Shown: piece by piece, positions 2,088 through 44,351 of the stretch
Layout: the number at the start of each line of letters is the position of its first letter
Numbering within the stretch: position 1 is the first letter of the stretch
DNA from: Lachnospiraceae bacterium
GTDB lineage: Bacteria > Bacillota > Clostridia > Lachnospirales > Lachnospiraceae
Direction of reading: 5' to 3'
Length of the DNA: 64,000 nucleotides
Assembly: GCA_910573755.1 (NCBI GenBank)
Contig: CAJTBO010000013.1
Span: 48,550-112,549, forward strand
The notes under the pieces: model-generated
Databases searched by the model: none
What the model was told of the DNA's origin: nothing
What the model saw: the letters and a program-made list of their open reading frames with translations, nothing else
Position numbers and translations under genes: made by a program

Positions 2088-2136
2088 AGCGGTCTCCAAT
2101 CCGTCAGATTCCTATATTAAGTATAGCAAAACAATT

Positions 2137-2193
2137 CCTAAAAATCTTCTAAAAAATACTTAATATTGGGTGATGAAATAGGAGATTTTTAGG
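2137..2193. promoter_or_regulatory. Candidate response-regulator sites in the divergent promoter region
   Basis: CCTAAAAATC at 2137 is followed by TTCTAAAAAATA, so the two CTAAAAA words start exactly 11 bp apart, the usual period of OmpR-type half-sites. The same word occurs inverted (AGATTTTTAGG, 2183-2193) on the lipoprotein side. The region lies between the regulator gene and the oppositely oriented lipoprotein-ABC operon. Binding is inferred, not shown. Confidence 0.5.
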
Positions 2194-2279
2194 ATGGCCG
2201 GATGTTATTCTTTGAATATGTTCAATGAAACATAGAACAGGCAAAAAAAGCCGAATAAAAAAGAAAAGAGGTATGGAAG

Positions 2280-2879: not shown

Positions 2880-2888
2880 GAGGTCAGG

Positions 2889-4088
2889 ATGGGTTGTTTG
2901 GAAAGAGCGCTCTGCTACATCCGGAGAAAAAAGATGAAGTCCGTATTATTGCTGTTTTTGTTTCTGGTAATCAACAGCATGGTTTTAGGCACGTTGGGAA
3001 TACGGAAAGTATCTTTAGAGCTGGCAGAAGAACTTCGGAAAAATGCAGAGAGCAAAATAACATTGGAGTGCATGGAGGCGGATCACCCTTTTGAAGAAAC
3101 AGATATGCAGGCAATTGAAGAGGAACCCAATGTAAACTGGCTCAACCGGATATCGGAGATGCAGGTTGGTTCTACAACCTGTATCCCGGTTGCAGGCAGT
3201 GAAGGTTCTGAAAATACATTTACCGTTCACGGGTACGATGAACTGGAGAAAGACAGCCCGTTTGCGGATAAAGTTTATCGGATTACAGAGGGGAATTATC
3301 CACAGGGAAGTGAAGATATTGTAGTGAATCAGTTTCTGGCAGAACATAATGGGATTCAGGCAGGCGATAAAATTGTGTTTGAAACGGTGGATGGAAGGGA
3401 GCAGGAAGCGGTCGTTACCGGATTGTTCCTGTCGGGGATGGAACGGAGCCAGACCGGAAATGTACAGGCAGTGAACCGCATTGAAAACCAGATTTATGGA
3501 ACGGCAGATTTTGTGAACAGGCTGTCCGGCAGGACTTGCTTTTTAAATGTGACAGTGTATGTAAATGATCCTGAGCAGCTCACGGATACAAAGGAAGTGC
3601 TGGAAAGAATGTATCAGGAGAGGGCTGCGATTGGGATAACAGATAATACATTCCAAAAATTAAAAATGATGATCGGACAGACAGGCAGAATTACGTTTTT
3701 AATTTTCGCCCTGACGGTAACTTCCGGCAGTTTGATAACAGGTCTTTTGCTTGCCATGTGGATGCGCAGCCGGAAAACGGAGATTGCTGTTCTGATCAGT
3801 CTGGGCATATCAAAGGAAAATATATTATCTCAAATGATTTTGGAAGAGATGATATTGTATTTTGTCGCATTCGCGGGAGCGGGAATTGCAACAAAGCTCT
3901 TATTACCACGGATTGGTAATAGTCTTGCTATCATGCAGGGGAACAGCATAGCATTGGAATTATCATTTAGCTGGCAGTCAGGAGTTTTATGTATCGGACT
4001 GACTGGTGTTGTAATATTGACTGGAATTGCCATTTTTCCGTATATGAAAAAGCCTGTGAAAGAAACTTTGTCGGAAATGGAGGGATAA
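2889..4088 (+). CDS. ABC transporter permease, FtsX/MacB type
   Basis: 399 residues. One N-terminal membrane helix (residues ~17-38) precedes a large extracytoplasmic domain of ~220 residues, and three C-terminal helices (about 265-290, 315-345, 365-385) make up the FtsX core. The end (PVKETLSEMEG) is the typical cytoplasmic tail of this family. AGGAGG lies 5 bases before the ATG. It pairs with the next permease and the ATPase at 5564 as a MacB-like heteromeric exporter, the type often used for antimicrobial-peptide resistance or lipoprotein export. The substrate is unknown. Confidence 0.9.
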   Translation: MGCLERALCYIRRKKMKSVLLLFLFLVINSMVLGTLGIRKVSLELAEELRKNAESKITLECMEADHPFEETDMQAIEEEPNVNWLNRISEMQVGSTTCIPVAGSEGSENTFTVHGYDELEKDSPFADKVYRITEGNYPQGSEDIVVNQFLAEHNGIQAGDKIVFETVDGREQEAVVTGLFLSGMERSQTGNVQAVNRIENQIYGTADFVNRLSGRTCFLNVTVYVNDPEQLTDTKEVLERMYQERAAIGITDNTFQKLKMMIGQTGRITFLIFALTVTSGSLITGLLLAMWMRSRKTEIAVLISLGISKENILSQMILEEMILYFVAFAGAGIATKLLLPRIGNSLAIMQGNSIALELSFSWQSGVLCIGLTGVVILTGIAIFPYMKKPVKETLSEMEG

Positions 4089-4090
4089 TA

Positions 4091-5554
4091 ATGAATGCAG
4101 AAGGACATACATTCATGAACATTTTAGAGTTAAGCATACGCTGTCTGGTGCGGAAACGGGCAAAGACAATTCTGCTTTTAAGCGTTGTTTTTGTAACAGC
4201 CTGCTTTATCTATGCCGGGTGGGCGTGCAAATCCGCAAACGTACAGACGCAGACGGAAGGGAAACAGGCGCTTGGGGCATCTTTCAGGATGGAAGAAAAT
4301 GAAGCGGACAGGCATGACAGGACGGCAGAGGCAATAGAAAAATTAGGCGGGCAGAACGGGAGTGTGGATGGATCGCATATAGAGCAGCTTGAATCAGGGG
4401 ATTGGATGATATGGCATGATAACTCTTTTGAAACCCTGCAGATGGAGGATATTGAAACGCTTGCAGGGCAGGAAGGGATTGCGGAATATAATGTCACCAC
4501 GGCGAACATAGTGGTCAATCCTGTAAATTTTGTACGGATTGAAGACCCGGATGTAGACCAGCATTCAGACCTGCTGGGTGTGTCATTGCGGGGAAATATG
4601 GAAATGCGTCTGGATTTCGATGTGCAGAATGGGAATATAGAAGTAAATGAGGGACGTATGATTACAGCAGAGGATAGGGATGTATGCGTCATATCAAGGG
4701 AACTGGCAGAATTAAACGGATTAACGGTTGGGGATAAACTGGAATTTAATGACCGGAAAGAGCGTGAAACATCTAAGGTTTACAGTGCGGAGATTGTCGG
4801 GATTTATGATACGATCCATAAAATCACGCCCATCATGTACGGGGACAGCTACCGGAGTGAGAACATCATCATGACAGATCTGCGTTTCCCGGAAAAGCCG
4901 CAGGGATGCGAGGGGGATCCGCTGTATCAATATGCGACATTCTGGGTAGAGAATGTGGATGAGTATGAAACGGTAAAGGAGAGGATCAGGAAAGCTGACA
5001 TTGATTGGAAACGCTATGATTTCCTTGACAATACCGGGATGAGCGATACGATGGCAGCGAATTTCGGAGATCTGGATGAAATGAGTACCATAATACTGAT
5101 CTTAGTTGCCGTTTCGGGCGCAGTCATTATTTTTCTTGTATTCCTGTTCTGGCTGAAAGGCAGGGTGCATGAAATAGGTATATTTTTGGCAATCGGGAAA
5201 GGCAAGGCTGCTATTATAGCACAGATGATACTGGAAGGAATCCTGATAGGATGCGTTTCTTTTATGCTGGCAACTGTATGTGCACCTGCATTATCTAAAA
5301 GTGTTGCAGATTATCTGGTGGGTTATCAGGTTCAGCAACAGGAGGAACAGAGGGAAGCGGAAGAAGGCATGACAGGAGGCGCGGGAGTGGCAGAATATAA
5401 AACAAAGGTAATGGGTGTTAAAACTGAAGTGACAGGAAAAATAGTCCTGCTGTCTGCCTGTTCTATATTGGGTGTGATTTTGATTGCAGTTTCATCGTCC
5501 TGTATATTTGTAGTAGTACAGAAACCAAAAGAAATTTTAAGCAAGATGAGTTAA
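4091..5554 (+). CDS. ABC transporter permease, FtsX/MacB type (second subunit)
   Basis: 487 residues. The start is the ATG at 4091, with GGAGG eight bases upstream; the previous stop is two bases away, so translation is coupled. It has an N-terminal helix after RCLVRKRAKTILLL, a long extracellular domain, three C-terminal helices and the family-typical tail VVVQKPKEILSKMS. A Glu/Gly-rich insertion (EEQREAEEGMTGGAG) between the last helices is unusual but does not break the frame. It forms the membrane part of the exporter with the upstream permease. Confidence 0.9.
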   Translation: MNAEGHTFMNILELSIRCLVRKRAKTILLLSVVFVTACFIYAGWACKSANVQTQTEGKQALGASFRMEENEADRHDRTAEAIEKLGGQNGSVDGSHIEQLESGDWMIWHDNSFETLQMEDIETLAGQEGIAEYNVTTANIVVNPVNFVRIEDPDVDQHSDLLGVSLRGNMEMRLDFDVQNGNIEVNEGRMITAEDRDVCVISRELAELNGLTVGDKLEFNDRKERETSKVYSAEIVGIYDTIHKITPIMYGDSYRSENIIMTDLRFPEKPQGCEGDPLYQYATFWVENVDEYETVKERIRKADIDWKRYDFLDNTGMSDTMAANFGDLDEMSTIILILVAVSGAVIIFLVFLFWLKGRVHEIGIFLAIGKGKAAIIAQMILEGILIGCVSFMLATVCAPALSKSVADYLVGYQVQQQEEQREAEEGMTGGAGVAEYKTKVMGVKTEVTGKIVLLSACSILGVILIAVSSSCIFVVVQKPKEILSKMS

Positions 5555-33284: not shown

Positions 33285-33719
33285 TTATTTGCAATCGCAC
33301 CCGCAGTTTGCATCAAACGCCGGGTTGCACATATAGAAGTTTTTGGAATTCAGCCTATCCTGAACAAGCCTGAGGGCTTCCCCGAATCTTTGAAAATGCA
33401 CAATCTCACGCTGTCTTAAGAAGCGGATCGGATCGCAGACATCGGGATCTTTGATCATGCGCAGGATATTGTCATAGGTGGTGCGGGCTTTCTGTTCTGC
33501 TGCCATATCCTCCATCAGATCGGTGATCGGATCACCGCAGCTCTGGAACTGGGCGGCGCTGAAGGGCATGCCGGATGCCGCCTGGGGCCAGATGCCGAGG
33601 GTATGGTCTACATAGTAGGCTTTGAAGCCGCTGTTTTCGATCTCTTCCATGGAGAGATTTTTGGTGAGCTGGTGTACAATGGCGGCTACCATTTCCAGAT
33701 GCGCCAGTTCTTCCGTACC
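33285..33719 (-). CDS. cotJC: cotJC, C-terminal part of a split gene (spore-coat Mn-catalase family)
   Basis: Encodes residues 63-205 of CotJC as it would be after joining with the part at 43716-43902: TEELAHLEMVAAIVHQL, then GDPITDLMEDMAAEQKART, then FLRQREIVHFQRF. It holds four of the five manganese ligands expected from the family (Glu65, His68, Glu136, His169) and a Cys-rich tail CGCDCK. Upstream of the TACC core the frame runs into the mobile element, where an ATG (MYRESHRF...) could open a 168-codon ORF, unlikely to be a working catalase. CotJC is a mother-cell coat protein in Bacillus. Confidence 0.93.
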   Translation of the reverse strand, partial: GTEELAHLEMVAAIVHQLTKNLSMEEIENSGFKAYYVDHTLGIWPQAASGMPFSAAQFQSCGDPITDLMEDMAAEQKARTTYDNILRMIKDPDVCDPIRFLRQREIVHFQRFGEALRLVQDRLNSKNFYMCNPAFDANCGCDCK

Positions 33720-33741
33720 CAGAGAAGCAGCGGTAATGTTC
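33716..33741. other. Left attachment junction (attL-like)
   Basis: The TACC core is followed inside the element by CA and an arm (33722-33741) whose reverse complement starts GAACATTACCGCTGCTTC. It matches the arm at the other end in 15 of 20 positions. On the circular form the two arms would face each other around TACCCA, placing the likely crossover at the central CC. Confidence 0.8.
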
Positions 33742-33806
33742 CGCTTATTGTATTTGGGGACGGGCATGAAACGGTGGGATTCCCGATACATAGCTTTTCG
33801 ACATTT

Positions 33807-33941
33807 GAGAGGATAAGGAAGTATGATGAAAATGAAGATGCGGGGGATGTCGGGAAGCCTTATTCTATCGAGGTTAGAGATACGGAAAGAATGATAACTA
33901 TATATGGCATTGTTTTAAAGAGATTTGATATAGCAGGTTAA
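33807..33941 (+). other. Possible 3' remnant of a gene just inside the left end
   Basis: One frame reads RKYDENEDAGDVGKPYSIEV, then RDTERMITIYGIVLKRFDIA G, and stops. It is protein-like but has no start, since upstream it runs antisense into cotJC. Probably the tail of a gene cut off at the element end. No family recognised. Confidence 0.25.
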
Positions 33942-33990
33942 AATGTTTCAGACCTATTTGTTTTATTATGGACAAGTAGGTCTGATTTTA

Positions 33991-34146
33991 TGTAGTAAAG
34001 CACACAAGAATAAGATTTGAAGTTGTTCGATTTGATTCGCTTGATTTTTTTGCGTAGCATAGATATAATGTAGTAAAGCACACAAGCGATAAAAAATTTA
34101 TGCGTATTTTAGTGCAGAAGTGAAAGTTTGGAAGTAAACTTCCAAA
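33991..34146 (+). promoter_or_regulatory. abiE promoter with direct repeats and leader palindrome
   Basis: TTGATT (34041-34046), 17 bases, TATAAT (34064-34069). An 18-base word TGTAGTAAAGCACACAAG occurs at 33991 and, overlapping the -10 and start site, at 34069. A 20-base palindrome TTTGGAAGTAAACTTCCAAA lies in the leader at 34127-34146. AbiEi-type antitoxins repress their own promoter, and either set could be the operator. Confidence 0.65.
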
Positions 34147-34188
34147 TCTACCTGAATGATGCAGTAAATGCGTCAGGAGGAGGAAATT

Positions 34189-34797
34189 ATGCTGACACAA
34201 AATGATATAACAATACTGAGCAAAATATTTTCTGGTTACGGCTATGTCATGACAACGGCACAGCTTACAAATGAAAAACTGTTTTATAGAGATATTCAAC
34301 GTATGCTGGAACAAGGATTGATTGAAAGAATAAAAAGGGGCTGTTACCATTGGGTGGAAGACTATGGGATGAGTGAGGTGGTTATTGTCAACCGCCTGTT
34401 CCCTGATGCAGTTCTTTGTATGGAAACAGCTCTTTTCTATTATAGATACAGTGACAGGAATCCCGCTGAATGGAATATTACCATTGACAAAAATACTTCC
34501 AGAAAGCGTACAAATATAGATTATCCTTTCATTAAGGCTTATCGGGTTGAGCCGGAGCTGCTTCCCATTGGAAAAACAAAAGGGAAAATTGACTTCCAAG
34601 AAGTTCATATTTATGACCGTGACCGTACCATTTGCGATGTGCTGAGGAATATGAATAAGATGGATAAAGAGATTTTTAATAAGGCAGTACAGGGCTATGT
34701 AAAAGACCAGAAAAAAAATATTCCGAACCTTATGCAGTACGCAAAGGCTTTGCGGGTGCAAAAGCGTGTAAAGGATTTGATTGGAGTGTGGTTGTAA
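34189..34797 (+). CDS. abiEi: AbiEi-type antitoxin / transcriptional regulator
   Basis: 202 residues. It starts at the ATG behind GGAGGAGGAA; an earlier in-frame ATG overlaps that site. The N-terminal winged helix (ILSKIFSGYGYVMTTAQLTN, IERIKRGCYHWV) and the C-terminal domain (FIKAYRVEPELL, IYDRDRTICDVLRNMNKMDK) match the AbiEi antitoxin family of type IV toxin-antitoxin and abortive-infection systems. It overlaps the toxin gene by one base (TAATG). It neutralises AbiEii and represses the operon. On this element the pair could stabilise it or defend against phage. Confidence 0.9.
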   Translation: MLTQNDITILSKIFSGYGYVMTTAQLTNEKLFYRDIQRMLEQGLIERIKRGCYHWVEDYGMSEVVIVNRLFPDAVLCMETALFYYRYSDRNPAEWNITIDKNTSRKRTNIDYPFIKAYRVEPELLPIGKTKGKIDFQEVHIYDRDRTICDVLRNMNKMDKEIFNKAVQGYVKDQKKNIPNLMQYAKALRVQKRVKDLIGVWL

Positions 34798-35729
34798 TGG
34801 CAGATAAGGCGGCATCCGTTCTTGCGAAATTGAAAAACAAAGCTAAGATTTCCGGAATTAGCTATCAACAGTGTTTGCAGTTGTTTATGCAGGAGGAATT
34901 TTTGCGGAAACTTTCAAAATCTGGTTATGAAGACAATCTTATTCTGAAAGGCGGATTGTTCATCTATACGCTTACTAATTTTGAAAGCCGCGCAACGATA
35001 GATGTTGATTTCCTGCTTCGTGGATTTTCCAATTCCATAGAAGATGTAAAAAGTATGATTGGTAAGATTATTGAGACATCAACAGGAAATGACTTTGTTT
35101 CCATGACAGCAAAGGGATTTGAAGAAATTTCCCCGCAGAGGAAATACCATGGCATCAGCACTCAAATTATCGGTCAGATAAAAAATGTCCGTGTGCCATT
35201 TAATGTTGATATTGGTGTGGGAGATATTATTGTGCCGAAAGCGGAGGAAAGGAGAATCAATACACAGCTTCCAGATTTTGAAAAGCCAGTGATAAAAACT
35301 TATTCTTTGGAAAGTACGATAGCAGAGAAATTTGACGCTATCTTGCAGCGATTTGAATTGACTGGCAGGATGAAAGACTTTTACGATATATATTATCTGG
35401 CAAGAACATTTGATTTTGAGGGAGCGAAGCTGCGGGCGGCAATTTTTGAAACATTGAAGAAAAGAGAAACACCTTATGACAGAGATAGCTTTAAGCGTAT
35501 TCTGGCACTTTCCGAAGATGAAGATATGCAGAAGCGGTGGAGATATTTTTTGAAAAATATTAAAGATGTTTCGCTTGAATTTGGGGTAGTAATTGTGGAG
35601 ATTCAGACTTTCATTGAGCCTGTGTTTGATGCGATAGTGGATGAGGGAGAATGGGATAAAGAATGGAACAGCAATTCAGGCACATGGTTGGATTTGAAAG
35701 GAGGTATCGAAAGTGACAAGAGCAGTTAA
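34797..35729 (+). CDS. abiEii: AbiEii-type nucleotidyltransferase toxin
   Basis: 310 residues. The nucleotidyltransferase core is LILKGGLFIYTLTNFESRAT IDVDF: the GG...DxD signature that binds nucleotide and metal. It is followed by NVDIGVGD (third acidic residue) and ETPIAEKFDA-like TYSLESTIAEKFDAIL, and FYDIYYLARTFDF, all hallmarks of AbiEii/MenT-type toxins that stop growth by transferring nucleotides to RNA. Start at ATG 34797, overlapping the antitoxin stop. The catalytic motifs look intact. Confidence 0.9.
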   Translation: MADKAASVLAKLKNKAKISGISYQQCLQLFMQEEFLRKLSKSGYEDNLILKGGLFIYTLTNFESRATIDVDFLLRGFSNSIEDVKSMIGKIIETSTGNDFVSMTAKGFEEISPQRKYHGISTQIIGQIKNVRVPFNVDIGVGDIIVPKAEERRINTQLPDFEKPVIKTYSLESTIAEKFDAILQRFELTGRMKDFYDIYYLARTFDFEGAKLRAAIFETLKKRETPYDRDSFKRILALSEDEDMQKRWRYFLKNIKDVSLEFGVVIVEIQTFIEPVFDAIVDEGEWDKEWNSNSGTWLDLKGGIESDKSS

Positions 35730-35943
35730 TGATGCAACACTAACCAAAGCCGGCGACATTTATCAATATCTAAATGCTTTAAAAGATTGCTTTGATAAGA
35801 CCCGTGACAGGATTAGGGAAGATACAGTATTGATAAATTATCTATTGTACTGCCCGAAATGCAAGCAGGAAACATTGATTGAAGCGAAAAATTTAAAAAT
35901 AGCAGTCATCAAAGAGCCAGACACACAGATGCAGAGCCGATGA
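35713..35943 (+). CDS. Chimeric small protein with Cys-rich KTR C-terminus
   Basis: 76 residues overlapping the toxin gene by 17 bp. The C-terminal part, KTRDRIREDTVLINYLLYCP, KCKQETLIEAKNLKIAVIKE, matches the small cysteine-rich KTR proteins carried by Tn916/Tn1549-like elements. The usual N-terminal CPxCG pair of that family is replaced by VNDATLTKAGDIYQYLNALK DCFD, so only one zinc-knuckle half (CPKC) remains. Probably a fusion of an AbiE-downstream ORF with a KTR fragment; it may be non-functional. Confidence 0.65.
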   Translation: MTRAVNDATLTKAGDIYQYLNALKDCFDKTRDRIREDTVLINYLLYCPKCKQETLIEAKNLKIAVIKEPDTQMQSR

Positions 35944-35976
35944 ACTTGTGGGAAAACCTCACAGCTCATCGGCTCT
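35933..35976 (+). terminator. Intrinsic terminator after the AbiE block
   Basis: AGAGCCGATGA and TCATCGGCTCT pair perfectly (11 bp) and CTTGTGGG/CCTCACAG extend the stem, followed by GTTTGTT. It separates the AbiE operon from the converging MATE gene. Confidence 0.85.
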
Positions 35977-35998
35977 GTTTGTTAGAAAGAAAAGATAT

Positions 35999-37402
35999 TT
36001 AGTTGTTTGGGCTTATTTCAGCAGTTTTTCTCTGCATCTCATTCAGCTTTTTGTGGAGCGGTATCGCTATGAATACCGTTATGACTGCGGAAAGCACATC
36101 GGCAATCGGCTGGGCATACATAATTCCATTTAGCCCCCAGACAATCGGAAGAAGCAGGATAGCGGGGATAAAGCAAATCCCCTGCCTGCAAGCTCCGAGG
36201 ATAAAACCCTCTCTGCCTTTTCCCAAAGCAAGGAACAGGGACGAATACACCGTATAAAACCCAAAGAGCATAATGGAAATGCCGTTTGCCCTCAAAGACG
36301 CCGCCCCGATGCGAATCATCTCGGTATCACCCTTTGTGAATTGGGAAACGATAGCCGTAGGGAACAGAGCCAGTATCACACCGAAAATCACACAGAAAGC
36401 TGTTGACCAGAGAATGGAAGTCTTGATTGCTTCGTGCAGACGGTCAAACTTCTTCGCTCCGTAACTGTACCCCGCAATGGGCTGAAAGCCTTTGATGAAC
36501 CCGAATACGGACAAGCTGCCCATTGAGATAAGGCGGGTGACAACGCCCATGCCTGCAATGGCAGAGTCCCCGTAATCGCCAGCGGCATTGTTGATTAAGG
36601 AAATGGACACACTCGTTAAAATCTGGAATACCAATGTCGGGATGCCGATTTTGAAAATCTCAGACATGGTTTCTTTTGTATATGTGCAGTCCTTAACCCG
36701 AAAATGGAATACGCTTTTTTTCCGAAAAATATAGGTCAGATATACGCAGGTTGAAACGATTTGTGAGATTGCAGTCGCTATCGCCGCTCCTGCCACGCCT
36801 AAATCAAACAGATAGATAAACAGCGGGTCTAAGGCGATATTGAGTACCGCACCCGTCAACAAAGCACACATGGTTGTTTTAGCAGCTCCCTCGCTAGTCA
36901 CAATGTTATTCATCGTGACATTGAATACATTGAAGATGCAGGAAACAATGTAAATGCCCGCGTATGTGGCGGCAAAGGGGAGGATGCTGTCGGTTGCCCC
37001 CAAAAGCTTCAGTATGGGATGCAGGAACACCATAGAAATGATAATGATGACTGCCCCAACGGATACGCTGCTGTACAGAGCGGTACTTGCTACTTTATCC
37101 GCATTTTCCTTATCCCCACGACCTAACAATCGGGAAAGGTAAGAAGCCGCACCGTTTCCGAACAGCAGACCAAGACCGACAACGACCTGTCCGAGCGGAT
37201 AGACCACGGAGATTGCCCCCATCTGGCTCTCCCCCAGCCCGCCGACAAAATAAGCGTCAACAAGGTTGTAGAAAGCATTTACCAACATGCCAATCATTGT
37301 TGGGATGCCCATTGCTAAAAGTGCTTTTGGTATGGATGTGCTGCCGAGCAGCTCCATCTTTTGGAGAGCACGTTTTGTAGTTGCTCTTTTTTGACTGTTC
37401 AT
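35999..37402 (-). CDS. MATE-family efflux pump 1
   Basis: 467 residues, twelve hydrophobic helices in two homologous halves. Family features include IPTMIGMLVNAFYNLVDAYF in helix 1-2, GNGAASYLSRLLGRGDKENA, and QPIAGYSYGAKKFDRL at the start of the second half. It exports cationic drugs or metabolites using a Na+ or H+ gradient (family knowledge). It is divergent from a PadR gene, with its promoter spacer filled by a palindrome, so PadR repression is very likely. Confidence 0.95.
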   Translation of the reverse strand: MNSQKRATTKRALQKMELLGSTSIPKALLAMGIPTMIGMLVNAFYNLVDAYFVGGLGESQMGAISVVYPLGQVVVGLGLLFGNGAASYLSRLLGRGDKENADKVASTALYSSVSVGAVIIIISMVFLHPILKLLGATDSILPFAATYAGIYIVSCIFNVFNVTMNNIVTSEGAAKTTMCALLTGAVLNIALDPLFIYLFDLGVAGAAIATAISQIVSTCVYLTYIFRKKSVFHFRVKDCTYTKETMSEIFKIGIPTLVFQILTSVSISLINNAAGDYGDSAIAGMGVVTRLISMGSLSVFGFIKGFQPIAGYSYGAKKFDRLHEAIKTSILWSTAFCVIFGVILALFPTAIVSQFTKGDTEMIRIGAASLRANGISIMLFGFYTVYSSLFLALGKGREGFILGACRQGICFIPAILLLPIVWGLNGIMYAQPIADVLSAVITVFIAIPLHKKLNEMQRKTAEISPNN

Positions 37403-37418
37403 TTTGAACTCCTTTCTC

Positions 37419-37504
37419 TTGACAAATACTGTTGATTATACTACTATAAAATATAGTAGTTGCGTTGCGGGGATTATAATACTATAACTTATAGTAGTTG
37501 TCAA
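37419..37504. promoter_or_regulatory. Back-to-back MATE and padR promoters with PadR-type palindromes
   Basis: Plus strand: TTGACA (37419-37424), 17 bases, TACTAT for padR. Minus strand: TTGACA (complement of 37499-37504), 17 bases, TATTAT (complement of 37476-37481) for the MATE gene. Palindrome 1 is ACTACTATA-AAA-TATAGTAGT (37440-37460), covering the padR -10. Palindrome 2 is ACTATAACTTATAGT (37481-37495), filling the MATE spacer. The half-site ACTATAA/TTATAGT is shared, as expected for one repressor on both promoters. Confidence 0.85.
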
Positions 37505-37525
37505 TAGAAAAAGGAGGGATTTTAA

Positions 37526-38053
37526 ATGGCAACCATTGACTTGATTGTATTGGGAATGTTGAAACGGGAATCCTTGAGTGCATACGATATTCAGAAACTG
37601 GTGGAATACCGCAACATTTCAAAGTGGGTAAAAATCAGCACACCATCCATCTATAAAAAGGTTATCCAGTTGGAAGAAAAGGGGCTTATCACAAGCCGCG
37701 CGGAGAAACAGGGAAAAATGCCCGAAAAGGCGGTATATTCCTTGACGGATGCAGGAAATGAGGAATTTGAGAAACTGATGCTTGAAATATCCTGCAAGCC
37801 GATTAACATATTCTTGGATTTTAATGCGGTTATCGTTAATTTAGAAAGTATGGAAAAGGAACAGCAGAGGGAATGTCTGGATAACATTGAGAGCAATATC
37901 AATGTGCTGAAATCCTATCTTGAGGAGAACATGGACTTAAAAGAAAACGCCCCCGATGTTCCTGCTGCGGGCATGGCGGTTCTGCATCAGCAATTTCGAT
38001 TAGTGCAGGCAATCGAAGAATGGATAAGGGCATTGAAAGAAGAACTGCTGTAA
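37526..38053 (+). CDS. PadR-family transcriptional regulator
   Basis: 175 residues. The winged helix is IDLIVLGMLKRESLSAYDIQ, then ISTPSIYKKVIQLEEKGLIT and AVYSLTDAGNEEFEK, followed by the Vir_act_alpha_C helical dimerisation domain. AAAGGAGG precedes the ATG. It probably represses the divergent MATE pump and itself through the two palindromes, and may be induced by pump substrates. Confidence 0.94.
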   Translation: MATIDLIVLGMLKRESLSAYDIQKLVEYRNISKWVKISTPSIYKKVIQLEEKGLITSRAEKQGKMPEKAVYSLTDAGNEEFEKLMLEISCKPINIFLDFNAVIVNLESMEKEQQRECLDNIESNINVLKSYLEENMDLKENAPDVPAAGMAVLHQQFRLVQAIEEWIRALKEELL

Positions 38054-38091
38054 ATGTAGATAATTAAAAATATAGCAAGAATGATGAAAAG

Positions 38092-38961
38092 ATGGATTTA
38101 GATATGGTGGCATCGGCACTGCACTATTCCAAATACCATCTGCATCGGATTTTTACAAAGACCGTCGGCTTGACTATCCACGACTACGCAAAACGGCGGC
38201 AGCTTACAGAAGCGGCAAAACTTTTGGCGTTTTCTGCAAAACCGATTATCGAGATTGCCCTTATGAGCGGATATGAAAGCCAGCAGGCATTTACGGATAT
38301 TTTTAAGGCGATGTATAAGACTTCCCCTGCGGAATTTCGGGAAACGGAAAATTTTTACCCGTTACAGCTTGAAATCTATCTGAAGGAGGAGCTTGTAAAA
38401 ATGGATTTGACAAAAGACAATATTAAATTTGCCACGCCCGAAGATGCGGATGACTGGATGGAACTGGTAAGCCTTACGATTGACGGCTATCCATGTCTGG
38501 ATAAGGAGGATTACGCCGCAAACCTGCATCAGTATATTGCGGATAAAAAGGCTTTGATTTTACGGGATGACGATATGGCTATTGGCGTGATGGGTTTTTC
38601 GCAAGGCACAGGCAGCATAGACTTTCTGGCTGTCCATCCGCAGTATCGGCATCTCGGCATTACAAAGCTGTTCCTTGATAAGCTGGCAGAGGAATTGCTT
38701 TGCGGGAAAGAGATTACGTTGACAACATACCGTGCCGGCGATAAGGCAGATACGGGCTGGCGGGAAGAATACCGACGTCTTGGATTTGCAGAACGGGAAC
38801 TGCTTGTGGAATATGGCTACCCGACGCAGTGTTTCGTGCTTCCACCGAAAAACAAGGAGGAAATACCGCAAGGGTATACCTCTATGCCCGAAAACACGGG
38901 CAGGAAAGGGGAAACAAGGAATGACCGAAACACAGAAAAACCCGTTGGCAGAGAGCTTTAA
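38092..38961 (+). CDS. AraC HTH-GNAT acetyltransferase fusion, N-terminally shortened
   Basis: 289 residues. Residues 1-85 carry the AraC DNA-binding domain (YSKYHLHRIFTKTVGLTIHD, PIIEIALMSGYESQQAFTDI, TSPAEFRE), but the first ~15 residues of helix 1 are missing, because a stop codon lies just upstream in frame. Residues ~105-260 form a GNAT domain (IDFLAVHPQYRHLGITKLFL acetyl-CoA loop). Such fusions regulate neighbouring efflux genes. The 3' end overlaps the second MATE gene by 41 bp. Function may be impaired by the lost helix. Confidence 0.8.
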   Translation: MDLDMVASALHYSKYHLHRIFTKTVGLTIHDYAKRRQLTEAAKLLAFSAKPIIEIALMSGYESQQAFTDIFKAMYKTSPAEFRETENFYPLQLEIYLKEELVKMDLTKDNIKFATPEDADDWMELVSLTIDGYPCLDKEDYAANLHQYIADKKALILRDDDMAIGVMGFSQGTGSIDFLAVHPQYRHLGITKLFLDKLAEELLCGKEITLTTYRAGDKADTGWREEYRRLGFAERELLVEYGYPTQCFVLPPKNKEEIPQGYTSMPENTGRKGETRNDRNTEKPVGREL

Positions 38962-40261
38962 CGCCCTATCCCTTATCCGATTTGCTTTCCCAAGCATAGT
39001 GATGATGCTGTTTATGGGATTATACACCATTGTGGACACGATTTTCGTCGCACGGTTTGTAGACACGAACGCTTTGTCGTCCGTCAATATCGTCTGCCCC
39101 GTCATCAATCTGATTGTCGGTCTGGGGACGATGCTTGCGACAGGCGGCAGTGCGGTTGTTGCGAAGAAAATGGGGAATGGAAACATAAGGGAAGCCCGAA
39201 GCAATTTCACGTTGATCGTCGTGACCGGTGCGGTTATCGGTCTGCTGATTACAGCGGCAGGGCTTTTCTTTTTGGATGAAATTATCTGGGGATTGGGGGC
39301 AAGTAAAGTATTGTTCCCATATTGCAGGGATTATCTGACGATACAGCTCATTTTCGCTGCTTTTAACATGATGCAGGTGCTATATCAGAATCTGTTTGTG
39401 ACGGCGGGGAAGCCGACATTAGGTTTAGCACTTGCTGTTCTGGCGGGGATTGCCAATATTGTTTTTGATTATGTTTTTATCGTTTTACTGCAAACGGGAA
39501 TCAAGGGAGCTGCCATTGGGACAGGCATCGGATATATGATACCGACAATTATCGGTACAATATTTTTTATGATGAAAAAAAGTGATCTGCACTTTTGCAA
39601 ACCTGACATGAACGCATCTGTTCTGCTGAAAAGCTGTTCCAACGGTGTGTCGGAACTGGTAAGCCAGTGTTCGACTGCCATAACTACATTTCTGTTTAAT
39701 GTAACAATGATGAAGCTATTAGGTGAGGACGGCGTAGCTGCGATTACGGTACTCATTTATTCGCAGTTCCTCTTAACAACGCTTTATATTGGCTTTTCTA
39801 TGGGAACAGCCCCCGTCGTAAGCTACAATTATGGGAGCGGGAATGTAAAACAGCTAAAAAGGACAGTGCGTATTTGTTTCTGCTTTATAGCGGGGATTTC
39901 CATATTTGTATTTTTATTTTCCATGCTTGGCGGAGAAGGCATTGCAAAGGTATTTGCGGAGAACAACAGGAATGTTTTTGAGATTACAAAGAATGGATTT
40001 ATCATTTTTTCATTCAGTTTTTTATTCTCCGGATGCAATATTTTTTCATCCGCATTATTTACGGCATTATCCAATGGGAAAGCGTCTGCAGCCATATCTT
40101 TCCTGCGGACGTTTGGATTTATTACGGTGTTCCTTTTGGTATTGCCGAGATTTTTAGAGGTGGCAGGCGTATGGCTTGCAGTCCCGCTTGCGGAACTGTT
40201 CACGCTTATGCTGACGATATATCTGCTATGCAGGCATCGAAAACAGTACAATTATTTTTGA
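38921..40261 (+). CDS. MATE-family efflux pump 2
   Basis: 446 residues. Start at the ATG behind AAGGGGAAACAAGGA, inside the end of the AraC-GNAT gene, giving coupling. Twelve helices; IRFAFPSIVMMLFMGLYTIV, ATGGSAVVAKKMGNGNIREA and TAPVVSYNYGSGNVKQLKRT mark the two MATE halves. Distinct in sequence from pump 1 on the same element. Two multidrug pumps with separate regulators suggest the element provides resistance as a selectable trait. Confidence 0.94.
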   Translation: MTETQKNPLAESFNALSLIRFAFPSIVMMLFMGLYTIVDTIFVARFVDTNALSSVNIVCPVINLIVGLGTMLATGGSAVVAKKMGNGNIREARSNFTLIVVTGAVIGLLITAAGLFFLDEIIWGLGASKVLFPYCRDYLTIQLIFAAFNMMQVLYQNLFVTAGKPTLGLALAVLAGIANIVFDYVFIVLLQTGIKGAAIGTGIGYMIPTIIGTIFFMMKKSDLHFCKPDMNASVLLKSCSNGVSELVSQCSTAITTFLFNVTMMKLLGEDGVAAITVLIYSQFLLTTLYIGFSMGTAPVVSYNYGSGNVKQLKRTVRICFCFIAGISIFVFLFSMLGGEGIAKVFAENNRNVFEITKNGFIIFSFSFLFSGCNIFSSALFTALSNGKASAAISFLRTFGFITVFLLVLPRFLEVAGVWLAVPLAELFTLMLTIYLLCRHRKQYNYF

Positions 40262-40385
40262 AAGAAAGGCAGGCAGGAAATCGAAACAGAGAGAATGGAT
40301 ATTATGCCCTGTCTGCGGGAGCAAAACCCGCAGCAGAATTAGGGAGGATACTATTCTGTGATTTTGCCGGGCAAAAAAATAGGAT

Positions 40386-40415
40386 TTGACAAACTGCTGG
40401 CATTCATGCTAGAAT
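40386..40415 (+). promoter_or_regulatory. Promoter of the ABC-F leader
   Basis: TTGACA (40386-40391), 18 bases, TAGAAT (40410-40415) with an extended TGC just before it. A near-consensus vegetative promoter reading into the leader ORF and terminators. Confidence 0.75.
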
Positions 40416-40447
40416 TATCTGCATTAATTTTTAAGGAGAACAGTTTC

Positions 40448-40546
40448 ATGAGCTTTTACATCACAAACGAACTTCCGCCTAAAAAGAAAATCAGCTCTGT
40501 ACAATCAAATCCGATGAAACATTGTACAGAGTATAGCGTAATATAA
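40448..40546 (+). CDS. Leader peptide 1 (32 residues) of the ABC-F attenuator
   Basis: AAGGAGA eight bases upstream, ATG, then MSFYITNELPPKKKISSVQS, NPMKHCTEYSVI, stop. Within it CTCTGTACAAT (40495) and ATTGTACAGAG (40521) form a perfect 11-bp hairpin, while CCGATGAAA in its loop can pair instead with TTTCATCGG at 40557. Alternative folds tied to ribosome stalling on a short ORF are how drug-inducible ABC-F and erm genes are controlled (family knowledge). Confidence 0.6.
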   Translation: MSFYITNELPPKKKISSVQSNPMKHCTEYSVI

Positions 40547-40594
40547 CACGTTAGGATTTCATCGGGAAATACGGCAACATATGAGAGGGATTTT

Positions 40595-40669
40595 ATGTCT
40601 TTTTCATATATTGTTTCTTTTCCCGTACAAATTTGTGTGCGCAGGCTATGGACAGTGTTTTGTCCGTAG
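40595..40669 (+). CDS. Leader peptide 2 (24 residues)
   Basis: GAGGGA precedes ATG, giving MSFSYIVSFPVQICVRRLWT, VFCP, with the TAG inside the first terminator stem. A ribosome stalled on it could block that stem. Existence is inferred from position, ribosome site and overlap. Confidence 0.4.
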   Translation: MSFSYIVSFPVQICVRRLWTVFCP

Positions 40670-40675
40670 CCTTTT
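40644..40675 (+). terminator. Leader terminator 1
   Basis: GGCTATGGACA pairs with TGTCCGTAGCC (one G-T position), loop of six, then CTTTTGTTG. It overlaps the end of leader peptide 2, the usual arrangement of an attenuator. Confidence 0.75.
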
Positions 40676-40721
40676 GTTGTATATAGGCTGTTTCCTGCAA
40701 GCAATTTGCAATGGAACAGAT

Positions 40722-40768
40722 ACAGCAGAAGGCATGATACCAAGAGTATCTGACTTCTGCTGTTTTTT
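40722..40768 (+). terminator. Leader terminator 2
   Basis: ACAGCAGAAG (40722-40731) pairs with CTTCTGCTGT (40754-40763), with an inner GATAC/GTATC stem and a T6 tract. A textbook intrinsic terminator 140 bases before the ABC-F start codon. Confidence 0.85.
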
Positions 40769-40907
40769 GCGCGTAAGGCATAAGCCAGGCTGGAATGCTT
40801 GCATTCCAATTTGGCGCCGCCCGCGAACCGTGGGTAACTTGCATAAGCATGTTTCTCAGGGTTGCCCATTTGGAAAAATCAGACAGGAAAAAGAGAGGAA
40901 AATGATT

Positions 40908-41368
40908 ATGAGTTTATTAGAAGTTACAGGATTAACACATTCTTTTGGTTAAGCGGGAGTTTCCGTTTTTCGGAGCAGGTAAAGATCGGGTATTTTGAGC
41001 AGGAGCCGGCATGGGCGGATATAGAAAAAACGCCCATTCAGATTGTTTCCGATGCCTGCTCATCGCTTACGATAAAAGACGTGAGAAGACGTCTCGCAGA
41101 CTGCGGCATCTCAAGCAAACACGCCATGCAGGAAATCGGGACTTTGAGCGGAGGAGAACAGGCAAAGGTTAAAATATGCCTGATCATGATGAAGCCGTGC
41201 AATTTCCTTATCATGGACGAGCCGACAAACCATCTTGATGCGCTTGCGAAAGAATCATTGAAAACCGCCCTGGAGGAATTTGAGGGGACAGTGCTGTTAG
41301 TATCGCATGAGGAAGCGTTTTACCGGGAATGGACGCAGAAAGTGATAAACATAGAAAAGAAAATATAG
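40908..41368 (+). pseudogene. ABC-F ribosomal-protection-type ATPase, internally deleted
   Basis: The first 14 codons MSLLEVTGLTHSFG are the typical ABC-F start, then a stop. The sequence resumes in another frame at VKIGYFEQEPAWADIEKTP and continues through LSGGEQAKVKICLIMMKPCN, FLIMDEPTNHLDALAKESLK and VLLVSHEEAFYREW to a natural stop. Walker A of both domains and the interdomain linker (roughly 330 residues) are lost. The gene is dead although its promoter, leader ORFs and attenuators remain. Intact relatives confer macrolide, lincosamide or pleuromutilin resistance. Confidence 0.88.
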
Positions 41369-41716
41369 GTCAAAGGCACATTTTTAAATAGTGCCGGAGG
41401 TAAGGGGAAGCCCGCCGGATAAAAAAACAGCGTTTGATGGGCTGCTTTGCCATGCCAAGAATAAAAGTCCTTCCAAACCTGCATATGGGAACTCTTGACA
41501 AGCGTTTTCTTCCTGCAATGGACAAAGCGTTGGCAATCAGTATTGGTTTAAACGGATATTCGCAATGCCCGATGAAGCAGGGCAGGCTTTTGGCTTCCTT
41601 ACCTGCTCATGAATGTTGTCCGCTGCATGATGACAGCGTTCAAAAAAAGGATTAGCCCCCTCGTTATATGGTACAATCATTCGCTCATACATTGAGAATG
41701 AGGGAGGTGCTGCCTG

Positions 41717-41902
41717 TTGGAGCATAGAGAATTTAGGTATGTTGGCGGGCCTGTTCCGGAATTGGATGAGCAGGAACACGCAGCATTTCTTATGAATTTT
41801 CAAAGGTCAATCCTTTTATCATTAGAAAAACGGAATCTGTTGACCGCATCACAGCGGGAACGCTGCCTGCTTGAGCTTGAAAAACAATATCGTCTAAATT
41901 AG
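41717..41902 (+). CDS. Small conserved-looking protein upstream of the recombinase (TTG start)
   Basis: 61 residues. The TTG follows GGGAGGTGCTGCCTG. The sequence EHREFRYVGGPVPELDEQEH, then FQRSILLSLEKRNLLTASQR, ERCLLELEKQYRLN is mostly helical, with a SHOCT-like C-terminal helical hairpin. A terminator follows, then the recombinase gene. Small ORFs like this often accompany large serine recombinases and may act as directionality helpers; that is speculation. The 348 bases before it (41369-41716) hold only scraps and a TATGGTACAAT promoter-like word. Confidence 0.6.
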   Translation: MEHREFRYVGGPVPELDEQEHAAFLMNFQRSILLSLEKRNLLTASQRERCLLELEKQYRLN

Positions 41903-41909
41903 AAAAAGC

Positions 41910-41938
41910 AACGTCAGGCATAACCGCTTGACGTTTTT
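41910..41938 (+). terminator. Intrinsic terminator before the recombinase gene
   Basis: AACGTCA pairs with TGACGTT, with a 12-base loop and a run of Ts. It insulates the recombinase from upstream transcription, so the recombinase depends on its own promoter. Confidence 0.75.
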
Positions 41939-41941
41939 ACA

Positions 41942-42002
41942 TAGTCAAGTGTGAAAATTACAAATTTGCACATTCGACATACCATTTTCAATTGACTATA
42001 CT
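41942..42002 (+). promoter_or_regulatory. Recombinase promoter with flanking inverted repeat
   Basis: TCGACA (41974-41979), 17 bases, TATACT (41997-42002) matches a vegetative sigma-A promoter well. TAGTCAA (41942-41948) and TTGACTA (41992-41998) are perfect inverted copies around it, the second overlapping the -10: a candidate repressor site. A weaker sigma-K-like reading (ACA, 15 bases, CATACCATT at 41978) overlaps the same DNA. Confidence 0.6.
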
Positions 42003-42042
42003 GAAAATACGGCAAGGGATTGTCGGGAAAGGAGATATTCTT

Positions 42043-43707
42043 ATGTCAATAAATAAATACGAAACCCTAAACCAAAAAAGGAAGATACAGCACACAAAGA
42101 GAAAGGTTGCCGCATACTGCCGTGTATCTACGGACAACGAAGATCAGGCAAATTCATTTGAAAGCCAGCAGCGTTATTTCAGACAGTATATAGAGCGTAA
42201 TCCCGATTGGGAGCTTTATGAAGTGTTTGCAGATGAAGGCATCTCTGGCACGAATACGAAAAAAAGGAAAGAATTCAACCGCATGATTGCGTGTGCAAAG
42301 AACGGTGATTTTGATTTGATTGTAACAAAAGAAATCTCCCGTTTTGCGAGGAATACCCTTGATAGTATATTTTATACCCGTGACCTCAAAAAGCACGGCG
42401 TGGGTGTTATCTTTATGAATGATAACATCAACACTTTAGACGGCGATGCGGAGCTTCGCCTTGCCATTATGTCCTCGATTGCACAGGAGGAAAGCCGTAA
42501 GACATCCGAGCGTGTGAAATGGGGACAGAAACGCCGGATGGAGCAGGGAGTTGTGTTTGGGCGGAGTATGCTTGGTTACGATGTAAAAGACGGCAAAATG
42601 TATATTAACGAGGATGGGGCGAAAGTTGTCCGTCTTATCTTCCACAAGTTTGTAAATGAGGGGAAAGGAACTCATGTGATTGCCCGTGAACTTCGGGAGG
42701 AGGGCATTAAGCCCATGCGGGTAAAAGAATGGCAGAACACAGTCATTCTCCGTGTTATCCGCAATGAAAAATACTGCGGTGATTTGGTGCAGAAGAAAAC
42801 CTATACGCCGGACTTTTTATCCCATGAAAAGAAGTACAACCGAGGGCAAGAGGAATTTGTGATTATCAAAGACCACCACGAGCCGATTATCTCCCGTGAG
42901 CTTTTCGATAAGGCAAACCGCATTTTGGATGAAAAATCGCTTTCACAGGAGGGCAAAGCAAAACACAGCAGCCGTTATCCGTTTTCCGGGAAAATCAAAT
43001 GCGGATGCTGCGGTTCAAGTTATGTGGCGAGATATAAAACCCGAAAAAATGGAAGCCTCTACAAGGCGTGGCGGTGTCTTGAAGCTGCAAGACATGGAAG
43101 CCCTCATGTGGACAAAGCAGGGAATCAGGTTGGATGCAGTGGATTTAGCATACGCAACGAAGATGCAACCCACATCATGTACCTTGTTACGAGAAGCTTA
43201 AAATATAATAAGGAGAAAATCACTGACAATTTGCTTGCTATTATCAAGTCTGTTATCGCAATGGATACCGCAGGTACAGACAGTGAGAAACTAAAATCAC
43301 AGATAAAAACGATTGAGGAAAAACGCACAGACCTCATTGACCTTTATACATCTGGCAATATTACCAGAGACGAATTTTCAGCAGCAAGGGCAAAATGTGA
43401 GAATGAGATTGCCGAACTGCGATCCGTGATAGATAGCATAGACAAACAAAGGGAGAGACCCTCAAAACAGCAAGAACTTGTTGCTGAAATTACGGAAGCG
43501 ATGAATGAGCTTATAAACGGCGTGGAATATGAAGATGATTTTTACAAAGAAATTTTAGATAAAATGGTTGTGAATGATAAAGACCATATTGATGTGTATT
43601 TGAACCTGCTCCCCCTCAAATGGAGCTATACGGTTGCAAAAAGCGTAAACTGTCCGCAGGGTAAACCGCTAAAAAAAGCTGGGGCCCCTGAGATGGAACA
43701 TTTCTGA
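42043..43707 (+). CDS. Large serine recombinase (site-specific integrase/excisionase)
   Basis: 554 residues from the ATG behind AAAGGAGA. The resolvase domain (residues ~20-165) has the catalytic Ser29 in AYCRVSTDNEDQANSF and the arginines in EISRFARNT and SQEESRKTSERVKWG-like segments. The recombinase domain (~190-300) includes KVVRLIFHKFVNEGKGTHVI. The zinc ribbon is KIKCGCCGSSYVARYKTRKN, then WRCLEAARHG and VGCSG. A long C-terminal coiled coil follows. It is the TnpX/SpoIVCA type that joins two short att sites. Its last codons (EHF-stop) lie inside the right inverted arm of the element, twelve bases from the core, so gene and site are physically fused. Confidence 0.96.
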   Translation: MSINKYETLNQKRKIQHTKRKVAAYCRVSTDNEDQANSFESQQRYFRQYIERNPDWELYEVFADEGISGTNTKKRKEFNRMIACAKNGDFDLIVTKEISRFARNTLDSIFYTRDLKKHGVGVIFMNDNINTLDGDAELRLAIMSSIAQEESRKTSERVKWGQKRRMEQGVVFGRSMLGYDVKDGKMYINEDGAKVVRLIFHKFVNEGKGTHVIARELREEGIKPMRVKEWQNTVILRVIRNEKYCGDLVQKKTYTPDFLSHEKKYNRGQEEFVIIKDHHEPIISRELFDKANRILDEKSLSQEGKAKHSSRYPFSGKIKCGCCGSSYVARYKTRKNGSLYKAWRCLEAARHGSPHVDKAGNQVGCSGFSIRNEDATHIMYLVTRSLKYNKEKITDNLLAIIKSVIAMDTAGTDSEKLKSQIKTIEEKRTDLIDLYTSGNITRDEFSAARAKCENEIAELRSVIDSIDKQRERPSKQQELVAEITEAMNELINGVEYEDDFYKEILDKMVVNDKDHIDVYLNLLPLKWSYTVAKSVNCPQGKPLKKAGAPEMEHF

Positions 43708-43719
43708 GGCTTCACTACC
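43696..43719. other. Right attachment junction (attR-like)
   Basis: The arm GAACATTTCTGAGGCTTCAC is followed by the TACC core and then cotJC. The arm includes the recombinase stop codon. With the left arm it forms a 15/20 inverted repeat around TACCCA on the predicted circle. The core corresponds to GGTA on the cotJC strand, the Gly62 codon plus one base. Confidence 0.8.
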
Positions 43720-43902
43720 TATATCCGTCAGTATAGCTGCAACCTCAGGATAGGGTGCGGCATAGCGTTGGGAGAGATAGCGCATGGAAGCGCCCATTTC
43801 CCCGTCAGGGCCGCCGTACTGGGAGATGATAACCTCCGCCAGCTTGGTATTCGGGTTTGTGATATTTACCGGGTATTGCAGACGTTTTTCATAACTCCAC
43901 AT
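43716..43902 (-). CDS. cotJC: cotJC, N-terminal part of a split gene
   Basis: Residues 1-62 of CotJC: MWSYEKRLQYPVNITNPNTK, LAEVIISQYGGPDGEMGASM, RYLSQRY, then AAILTDIG, with manganese ligand Glu35. Beyond the core the frame reads 15 foreign residues in the element (SEASEMFHLRGPSFF) and stops, so only a 77-residue fragment can be made while the element is present. GGAGGTG precedes the ATG, which directly follows the cotJB stop. The sequence closely resembles Bacillus CotJC up to the break. Confidence 0.93.
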
Positions 43903-44172
43903 TTAGCAGGCACCTCCTTCCCAGGGCATGGGCGATGTAGCCCATTTCCATTCGTCCATACAGTTTCCGGGCATATCCTGACGGAGCGGTCCGAATTTTG
44001 CTGTATATTCTTTTGTCACCTGATGAAGCATTTTGTTGTAGCGATGGAAATAGGAGATTGCATCCGTGTCGAAGGGATGGGTATCCAGATATTCCCGCAG
44101 ATCGGTGGTGGTGAAGTCCAGTACGCTGATATCCATCAGCATTCTTCTTTTTTCTGTCATATTCTGATTCAT
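43903..44172 (-). CDS. cotJB: Spore-coat protein CotJB
   Basis: 89 residues. ISVLDFTTTDLREYLDTHPF, then DTDAISYFHRYNKMLHQVTK, EYTAKFGPL and WKWATSPMPWEGGAC are the CotJB pattern. It overlaps cotJA by four bases (ATGA) and abuts cotJC. In Bacillus, CotJB is made in the mother cell and helps assemble CotJC into the inner coat. Intact here. Confidence 0.92.
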   Translation of the reverse strand: MNQNMTEKRRMLMDISVLDFTTTDLREYLDTHPFDTDAISYFHRYNKMLHQVTKEYTAKFGPLRQDMPGNCMDEWKWATSPMPWEGGAC

Positions 44173-44351
44173 CGTCTGCCTCTCTTTCCCATGAAAGGTT
44201 TATCCAGTTCGGGGAAGATCGTGCCCCTGTTAAAGGCTTCTTCCAGATTCTCATAGAGAACCGGCGCCTGCTGCATAGGCACGTATGCCATACCGATCGG
44301 AAAGTTTCCCATCATGTCATTCATAAAAGGTCGTTGCGGTCTTTGCATCAT
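44169..44351 (-). CDS. cotJA: Spore-coat protein CotJA
   Basis: 60 residues: FPIGMAYVPMQQAPVLYENL, EEAFNRGTIFPELDKPFMGK. The Y-P-Q...Y-x-x-L-E-x-A-F-x-R-G-T-I-F-P-x-L-x-x-P-F pattern is typical of CotJA. Shorter than the Bacillus protein at the N-terminus, as in clostridia. First gene of the operon, behind a sigma-E-type promoter and AAAGGA. Confidence 0.9.
   Translation of the reverse strand: MMQRPQRPFMNDMMGNFPIGMAYVPMQQAPVLYENLEEAFNRGTIFPELDKPFMGKRGRR

Follow-up and report, generated by a model that had tools for sequence, protein, structure and literature searches.

The closest described relative, in design, of the locus reported here is the skin element in sigK of Clostridioides difficile. 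Our locus is a coat manganese-catalase gene, cotJC, split by a 10,000-bp element with a large serine recombinase, and it lies in a 64,000-nucleotide stretch of a Lachnospiraceae bacterium genome (assembly GCA_910573755.1, contig CAJTBO010000013.1, positions 48,550 to 112,549), hereafter the window, whose numbering is used unless a locus handle (L) is given; G handles denote genomes. The skin element is described as a serine-recombinase element (CD1231) in a mother-cell gene, with a sigma-A promoter for the recombinase and a separate small gene, CD1234, which encodes a 72-residue excision factor and has a sigma-E consensus with a start site 14 bp upstream of the start codon (PMC5025042). In that report, expression of CD1234 is lower without SpoIIID, and CD1234 confines the action of the constitutive recombinase to the mother cell (PMC5025042).

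Other published elements share parts of this design. The gin element restores the sporulation gene gerE of Bacillus cereus ATCC10987 and is described as a non-prophage island of 28.6 kb with three recombinase genes, using a serine recombinase (GirC) and an extra factor (GirX) (PMC5595907). Intervening elements in further sporulation genes, namely yin in yabG of Clostridium botulinum, vfbin in spoVFB and SPbeta in spsM, are described as prophage-like; the available excerpts place none of them in cotJC and mention no gene holding several elements (PMC10747680, PMC4191935). The yin element encodes a recombinase and a putative recombination directionality factor (RDF) and was termed unique to one strain (PMC10747680). 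The nearest published hint of a cotJC-type element is the phi027 prophage of C. difficile, which adjoins the catalase-family gene cotG, a CotJC/manganese-catalase homologue; unlike the gene reported here, cotG is placed by the authors on the downstream side of attR, with no account of its being divided and restored (PMC11222575, PMC12122855).

The cotJC element works like the skin, gin and yin elements, in that their testable structural features were found at this locus, and cotJC is a new target gene. As in skin, the element sits in a mother-cell gene and combines a small gene under a sigma-E-like promoter with a recombinase under a sigma-A-like one, both promoters being predicted here. Unlike skin, which is one element at one point, the target is a coat enzyme and not a sigma factor. 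The likeness to gin lies in a non-prophage island with a serine recombinase and a candidate extra factor, and the difference in its size, its number of recombinase genes and its target. Our comparison of the small gene with CD1234 concerns layout, and its sequence was compared with Pfam and NCBIfam families. No cotJC-intervening element was found in the literature searched, which left most subscription journals and all preprints outside coverage; the first-pass annotation, made from the sequence alone, likewise knew of no characterised example. The multiplicity and spread of the cotJC elements are new relative to known intervening elements, since those that we found published occupy one gene each in one or a few strains or species, and here one gene is split, at one or more of three places, in at least 30 of 95 genomes. 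We consider it likely that these are mobile islands docked in cotJC and excised in the mother cell, in the window's lineage by the recombinase together with a small protein driven by sigma-E.

An in-frame split of cotJC beside a serine recombinase

By tblastn and translation, cotJC is present as two pieces on the minus strand: a 5′ half of codons 1-61 (43720-43902; PF05067 positions 1-69) and a 3′ half running from core codon 62 to the stop (33285-33719; PF05067 positions 60-198). TACC stands at both breaks (33716-33719 and 43716-43719), and core codon 62 follows the 5′ half directly at 43719-43717. Joining 33719 to 43720 gives 618 nt with an open frame for a CotJC of 205 residues, and the claim of the first-pass annotation that excision would restore the gene exactly is borne out. 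The junction that it proposed for checking, 33715 to 43720, leaves out the core and breaks the reading frame; the correct one is 33719 to 43720. Core positions and a same-genus empty site place the intervening element, 10,000 bp including one core copy, at 33720-43719. The breaks in this sporulation gene thus lie at a short repeat, and the predicted excision would restore the frame exactly, as in other gene-intervening elements.

The assignment as cotJC rests on the PF05067 match and on the position as third gene of a cotJA-cotJB-cotJC operon, in which cotJB (43903-44172, minus strand; PF12652) stands immediately upstream of cotJC and cotJA (44169-44351, minus strand; PF11007) comes first, with CATACAAT at 44391-44384 upstream of it. 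The split copy is the sole manganese-catalase-family gene recognised in the window's genome, a draft of 87 contigs with 95% completeness that also encodes SigE, an unsplit SigK, SpoIIID and SpoIVA. In an alignment with a solved manganese catalase, Glu35 falls in the 5′ half and Glu65, His68, Glu136 and His169 fall in the 3′ half. We take these five residues to be the metal ligands, and the alignment agrees with the earlier statement that the break separates Glu35 from the other four.

Empty sites are found in two genomes of the same genus, where cotJC is whole and aligns to the joined halves with 0 gaps (L144, 86.7% DNA identity over 600 bp; L141, 83.3% over 618 bp), which supplies the comparison with intact relatives that had been suggested. 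A false joining of unrelated contigs inside cotJC, conceivable in a draft of this many contigs, is very unlikely, indeed nearly negligible, because 70 of 80 other public records, some of them isolate genomes, have a junction of this kind at the same codon. The split is not due to chance, given the same-genus empty site and the recurrence of the junction beside the same recombinase lineage.

The recombinase itself (open reading frame (ORF) 41992-43707, plus strand) has the three domains of a large serine recombinase (Resolvase PF00239, Recombinase PF07508 and Zn_ribbon_recom PF13408) and terminates at most 12 bases from the cotJC break, at the element's end as first described. Its start is more likely the ATG at 42043, which is preceded by AAAGGAGA. 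This enzyme presumably made the insertion. Among the 80 loci retained as its relatives (67-96% identical), a cotJC 5′ half is found within 250 bp of the recombinase 3′ end in 70 and at 2.4-8.6 kb in 4 more; none was recognised in the remaining 6, among them L050, whose contig stops some 100 bp further along. In most loci displayed the break is likewise in codon 62, and 60 of the 70 adjacent recombinases are full-length and open. Another five are missing their beginning, in three cases where a contig ends.

At attR (43690-43745, minus strand), cotJC ending in GATATA is followed by GG and then by a conserved element arm, TAGTGAAGCCTCAGAAATGTTCC; a closely similar arm, for example GGTAGAGAAGCCCCTGAAATG, stands at codon 62 in most loci displayed. 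Comparison of the junctions gives an attL (33700-33745, minus strand) made up of the arm GCTTCTCTG, GG, and then TACGGAAGAACTGG leading into cotJC. The two arms form an 8-bp inverted repeat, GCTTCTCT/AGAGAAGC, flanking the core, which is exact in L052, L054 and L082 and has a single mismatch in the window. All 20 complete codon-62 elements (2.2-12.3 kb, the window's included) have GG at codon 62 on both sides, and the third base of the codon differs between sides in 6 of the 20; the crossover core is therefore probably GG.

A conserved small gene with a sigma-E-like promoter

The recombinase is immediately preceded by a conserved small gene of 61 codons with a TTG start (41717-41902, plus strand), a candidate RDF. 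A tblastn match to it (E up to 0.05) occurs in 72 of 81 loci (the window and the 80 relatives), at a distance from the recombinase start of at most 350 bp in 69 cases, and short elements of 3.0-4.3 kb retain it (L055, L080, L107 and L067). Its median ratio of nonsynonymous to synonymous substitution rates (dN/dS) is 0.20 (1,007 pairs) versus 0.89 in a shifted frame (1,780 pairs), and the gene is under purifying selection by this measure. The small protein matched no Pfam or NCBIfam family, and assignment to a named family was dropped for that reason; it has 171 homologues in the protein collection, and the named ones among the 120 listed are hypothetical proteins. To our knowledge, RDFs have no common sequence. 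By its position and by analogy with known elements, the small protein may be the directionality factor of this one.

A predicted sigma-E-like promoter, TTATATG - 15 nt - CATACATT, precedes the small gene (41664-41693, plus strand), and the block is recognisable even in distant relatives. The pattern ATA-N15-18-CATA is found in 54 of 70 upstream regions (mean 1.7 and maximum 8 in shuffles preserving single-base composition only); among 28 clusters under 80% identity, 14 have it (shuffled mean 0.6, maximum 4). GTACAA lies in the spacer of the window's promoter, and we take GTACAA/GGACAA at this place to resemble a SpoIIID box. The promoter may thus be used by sigma-E, perhaps with SpoIIID. A sigma-K reading (AC-N15-17-CATA) was weaker than the sigma-E one, with 11 of 70 regions against 2.6 in shuffles. 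For C. difficile, the published −35 elements are ATA (sigma-E) and AC (sigma-K), and the −10 elements of the two are much alike (PMC3789822). A separate sigma-A-like promoter is predicted for the recombinase (TCGACA-17-TATACT, 41974-42002, plus strand; 10/12 matches), one of 5 such sites found in the region versus 4.3 in shuffles. Beyond the 3′ end of the small gene, a hairpin AACGTCA..TGACGTT followed by a T run (41910-41938, plus strand), seen by eye, is a possible terminator; it was missed by a terminator scanner that allows loops of 3-8.

Sequence at this locus and its relatives shows that cotJC is split at a GG core and is whole and in frame at the empty site; it also shows the recombinase, the small gene linked to it, the promoter-like block and the recurrence at one codon. 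With both halves open, sporulation regulators encoded in the genome and a small gene behind a sigma-E-like promoter, the anatomy proposed in the first-pass annotation, a site-specific serine-recombinase element in cotJC, is right and proves general, and its reading as a developmentally excised element is partly supported. The movement of elements between species, the three target places with their own recombinase lineages and the presence of two or three elements in one cotJC go beyond it.

Apparent movement between species and three places in one gene

Some hosts have a recombinase 92-96% identical to that of the window but a CotJC 5′ half that shares only 65-77% identity with its counterpart there, and in many host pairs the synonymous divergence (dS) of the recombinase is far below that of cotJC. 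The elements seem to pass from one species to another, entering cotJC at the same codon. The use of recombinase-cotJC co-divergence to prove long residence was abandoned, and residence time cannot be read from divergence because the two histories mostly disagree in the pairs displayed. These near-identical recombinases in widely differing hosts, the varied cargo and the sigma-A-like site before the recombinase would also suit an ordinary integrative element that leaves at low frequency for transfer at any growth stage, restoring cotJC as an untimed by-product. We regard that explanation as improbable, in view of a small-gene promoter that appears sporulation-specific (as predicted), of target places that number three within one sporulation gene, and of the nine element ORFs scanned, which include no conjugation or phage gene. 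At the locus L042 (9848-20356), the cotJC 5′ half is preceded by two recombinase ORFs in addition to a broken one, and two element arms meet near 11715; elements seem to have accumulated one behind another at codon 62 there. This arm-to-arm junction was rejected as an excised form, as it reflects neighbouring elements.

A survey of 145 related genomes yielded 95 with a manganese-catalase match, of which 62 have a full-length copy listed and at least 30 (about a third) have a split cotJC copy; no full-length copy is among the matches listed for 26 of the 30. The figure of 30 is a lower bound, as the listing did not hold every match and about a dozen second full-length copies in genomes counted as intact were omitted from the survey rows. 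It does not count G006 and G129 (cut by contig ends) or G048 (nearly full length), and G024 and G124, whose contigs stop at the break, are possible further cases. By place, 15 genomes are split near codon 62, 11 near codon 32 and 7 at codon 136, with G067 and G105 counted more than once as they are split at more than one place. SpoIVA, taken as a control gene, scored above the cut-off in 106 of the 145 genomes, covered at least 233 of 237 positions in 105 of them, and showed no second complementary piece, hence no split, in any of the 106. It is present in 28 of the 30 split-gene genomes.

The three places stand before Glu35, before Glu65/His68 and in the Glu136 codon, and thus at or just before the codons of motifs that we presume to be ligand motifs, their positions being aligned. 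At residue 32, most pairs share the bases GGN-GGN-CC or a part of them (Gly30-Gly31-Pro32); at residue 136 the shared bases are GCA-GA within Ala135-Glu136, compared with the GG of Gly62 at codon 62. In a tree of 114 recombinases, built by a quick method and with long-branch warnings, the residue-136 recombinases form one clade (5/5) and those of residue 32 form one clade for 11 of 13 labelled rows. The other two rows (L079_571 and L160_3972), labelled for residue 32 and placed among the codon-62 rows, probably carry the wrong label, given how short the middle cotJC piece is. The recombinases of codon 62 fall into the window's large clade and a distant clade of 4; for this distant lineage the 5′ pieces extend to about codon 68 (L127, L133 and L180), and it seems to cross over slightly later in cotJC.

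Some copies hold several elements. In L054 two elements, with two recombinases, leave cotJC in three pieces; L089 has three pieces and three recombinases, with a fourth piece beyond the stretch; and G105 has four pieces. Whether cotJC is a docking gene, entered at three places by separate serine-recombinase lineages and, in some spore-formers, stitched from three or four pieces by two or three timed excisions in each mother cell, with cargo islands travelling in spores and the catalase spared, seems to us evenly balanced. Under strict patterns, the window-type attR occurs in 11 of 397 family genomes and an uninterrupted stretch of cotJC codons 60-68, a pattern shared by 5′ pieces (e.g. G055, G019) and by genes whose split lies elsewhere, in 180; 3 of the 11 attR genomes have both. 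In L131 (G068) the cotJC 3′ half occurs twice in tandem (661-1086 and 4201-4626, a spacing of about 3.5 kb); that stretch yielded no recombinase ORF, and the 5′ half is on another contig (L132).

Decay, function and the case for permanent insertion

Several observations speak against timed excision. Neither a circle nor an excised allele was observed: the attP (arm-to-arm) pattern gave 0 matches in viral contigs, and the intact copies beside split ones in G257 and G371 are different genes and not excised alleles (73.5% identity over 136 bp, or no DNA match). Five of the 70 adjacent recombinases contain a stop (L044, L058, L061, L095 and L101), and in L124 (G141, 508-3342) a 2.2-kb element in cotJC has its recombinase cut to 288 residues; given these stops and this truncation, some split cotJC genes may be dead. 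The L124 element, which also holds an aminotransferase-like ORF (by eye), is probably trapped. Two split-gene genomes, G038 (86% complete) and G111 (90%), are without a SpoIVA match. The small gene has an unusual set of start codons (40 TTG, 15 CTG, 5 ATG, 2 GTG and 5 others; n = 67), half of its diverged clusters are without the sigma-E-like block, the shuffles behind the promoter counts were simple ones, and at the other two places the recombinases do not consistently have the block, so that a sigma-E-like promoter at every cotJC recombinase was dropped as a generalisation beyond the window's lineage. Open halves may mean just recent insertion, because the recombinase moves between species. 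Restoration of cotJC may matter little, as Bacillus subtilis mutants without coat CotJC are reported to show no apparent defect (PMC12122855).

The gene itself has not decayed. Stops are found in 0 of 70 cotJC 5′ halves (69 without L002, a duplicate of the window) and in 0 of 12 3′ halves (11 without the duplicate L001), and the window's halves have a dN/dS of 0.013 (5′) and 0.039 (3′) against the nearest intact copy, both within the range of comparable intact pairs (0-0.084, n = 3). Open halves alone do not prove selection after insertion. What an unselected piece of cotJC looks like is exemplified in the same-genus genome G001, where L141 carries, beside its intact cotJC, a second 3′ fragment (2656-2940) with two TAG stops. 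This decayed fragment, the truncated L124 recombinase and the five with stops are what an old insertion with a dead recombinase and two drifting halves would lead one to expect; such a pseudogene is hardly credible for the window, whose recombinase is open and full-length and whose halves have the low dN/dS just given.

The main rival is safe-harbour insertion, in which cotJC is a conserved, dispensable target, the elements are permanent, and carriers have lost cotJC with no developmental excision. The high mobility of the recombinase, the broken recombinases and the reported dispensability of CotJC in B. subtilis would all suit it, as would second full-length family members in carriers (G041, G054, G056, G099, G257 and G371). 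We nevertheless think it unlikely. No full-length copy is among the matches listed for 26 of the 30 split-gene genomes, the cotJC halves of the named relatives are open, the conserved small gene beside the recombinase has a predicted sigma-E-like promoter, and short elements retain the module of small gene and recombinase with little cargo.

Proposed mechanism

Mother-cell excision, the reading that we prefer, would proceed as follows. A probably mobile 10,000-bp island with a large serine recombinase inserts at codon 62 of cotJC, and expression of the recombinase would be constitutive, like that of its counterpart in C. difficile skin. Sigma-E, perhaps with SpoIIID, would turn on, in the mother cell, the small protein, which would switch the recombinase to excision; the island would be cut out and an unbroken coat-catalase gene formed as the spore coat is built. 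Excision would be confined to the terminal mother cell, and the spore chromosome would for that reason keep the element. The island would thereby hide in a gene for which vegetative cells would have no use and spare the host's spore coat, and its toxin-antitoxin pair might penalise loss outside the mother cell. Other recombinase lineages use cotJC at two further places.

If cotJC does act as a docking gene, an island family spreads between species inside spores at no cost to the spore catalase. If the excisions are timed, this is widespread mobile DNA that burdens no vegetative function and is let go in the mother cell, and cotJC fragments in carrier genomes need not be pseudogenes. The system offers natural sets of recombinases, att sites and a candidate directionality factor.

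Cargo of the element

Between attL and the small gene, the window's element carries an AbiEi-like antitoxin (34168-34797, plus strand; PF13338, E 1.3e-4, below the curated cut-off) and an AbiEii toxin (34788-35729, plus strand; PF08843, E 1.6e-43), a type IV toxin-antitoxin pair. These are followed by a MATE-family transporter (35999-37402, minus strand; PF01554), a PadR-like regulator (37526-38053, plus strand; PF03551), an AraC-type regulator with a GNAT domain (38092-38961, plus strand; PF12833, PF13508) and a second MATE-family transporter (38732-40261, plus strand; PF01554), whose start is probably further downstream than that of the listed ORF. A uup cis-regulatory RNA (40485-40532, plus strand; RF03060, 65 bits) lies upstream of a 168-codon ABC-F-like ORF (40862-41368), and this ABC-F gene appears shortened, since the best match spans only the C-terminal part of ABC-F.

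The Pfam scan of nine element ORFs found no phage (structural, lysis or replication) gene and no conjugation gene, and a prophage origin of the window's element was rejected on that basis. None of 50,697 phage and 72,556 plasmid records matches the recombinase at 60% identity or more. By eye, the element of L133, at nearly the same place in cotJC, has tail- and lysin-like ORFs and looks prophage-like. The 3.0-kb element of L055 (8870-9458) carries cargo resembling a Phd/ParE-type toxin-antitoxin pair where the window has AbiE, and L067 looks similar in cargo (both by eye). Two residue-32 elements (L034, 3510-8085, and L089, 11481-16033) have as sole large cargo an 850-codon sensor-kinase-like protein, again recognised by eye.

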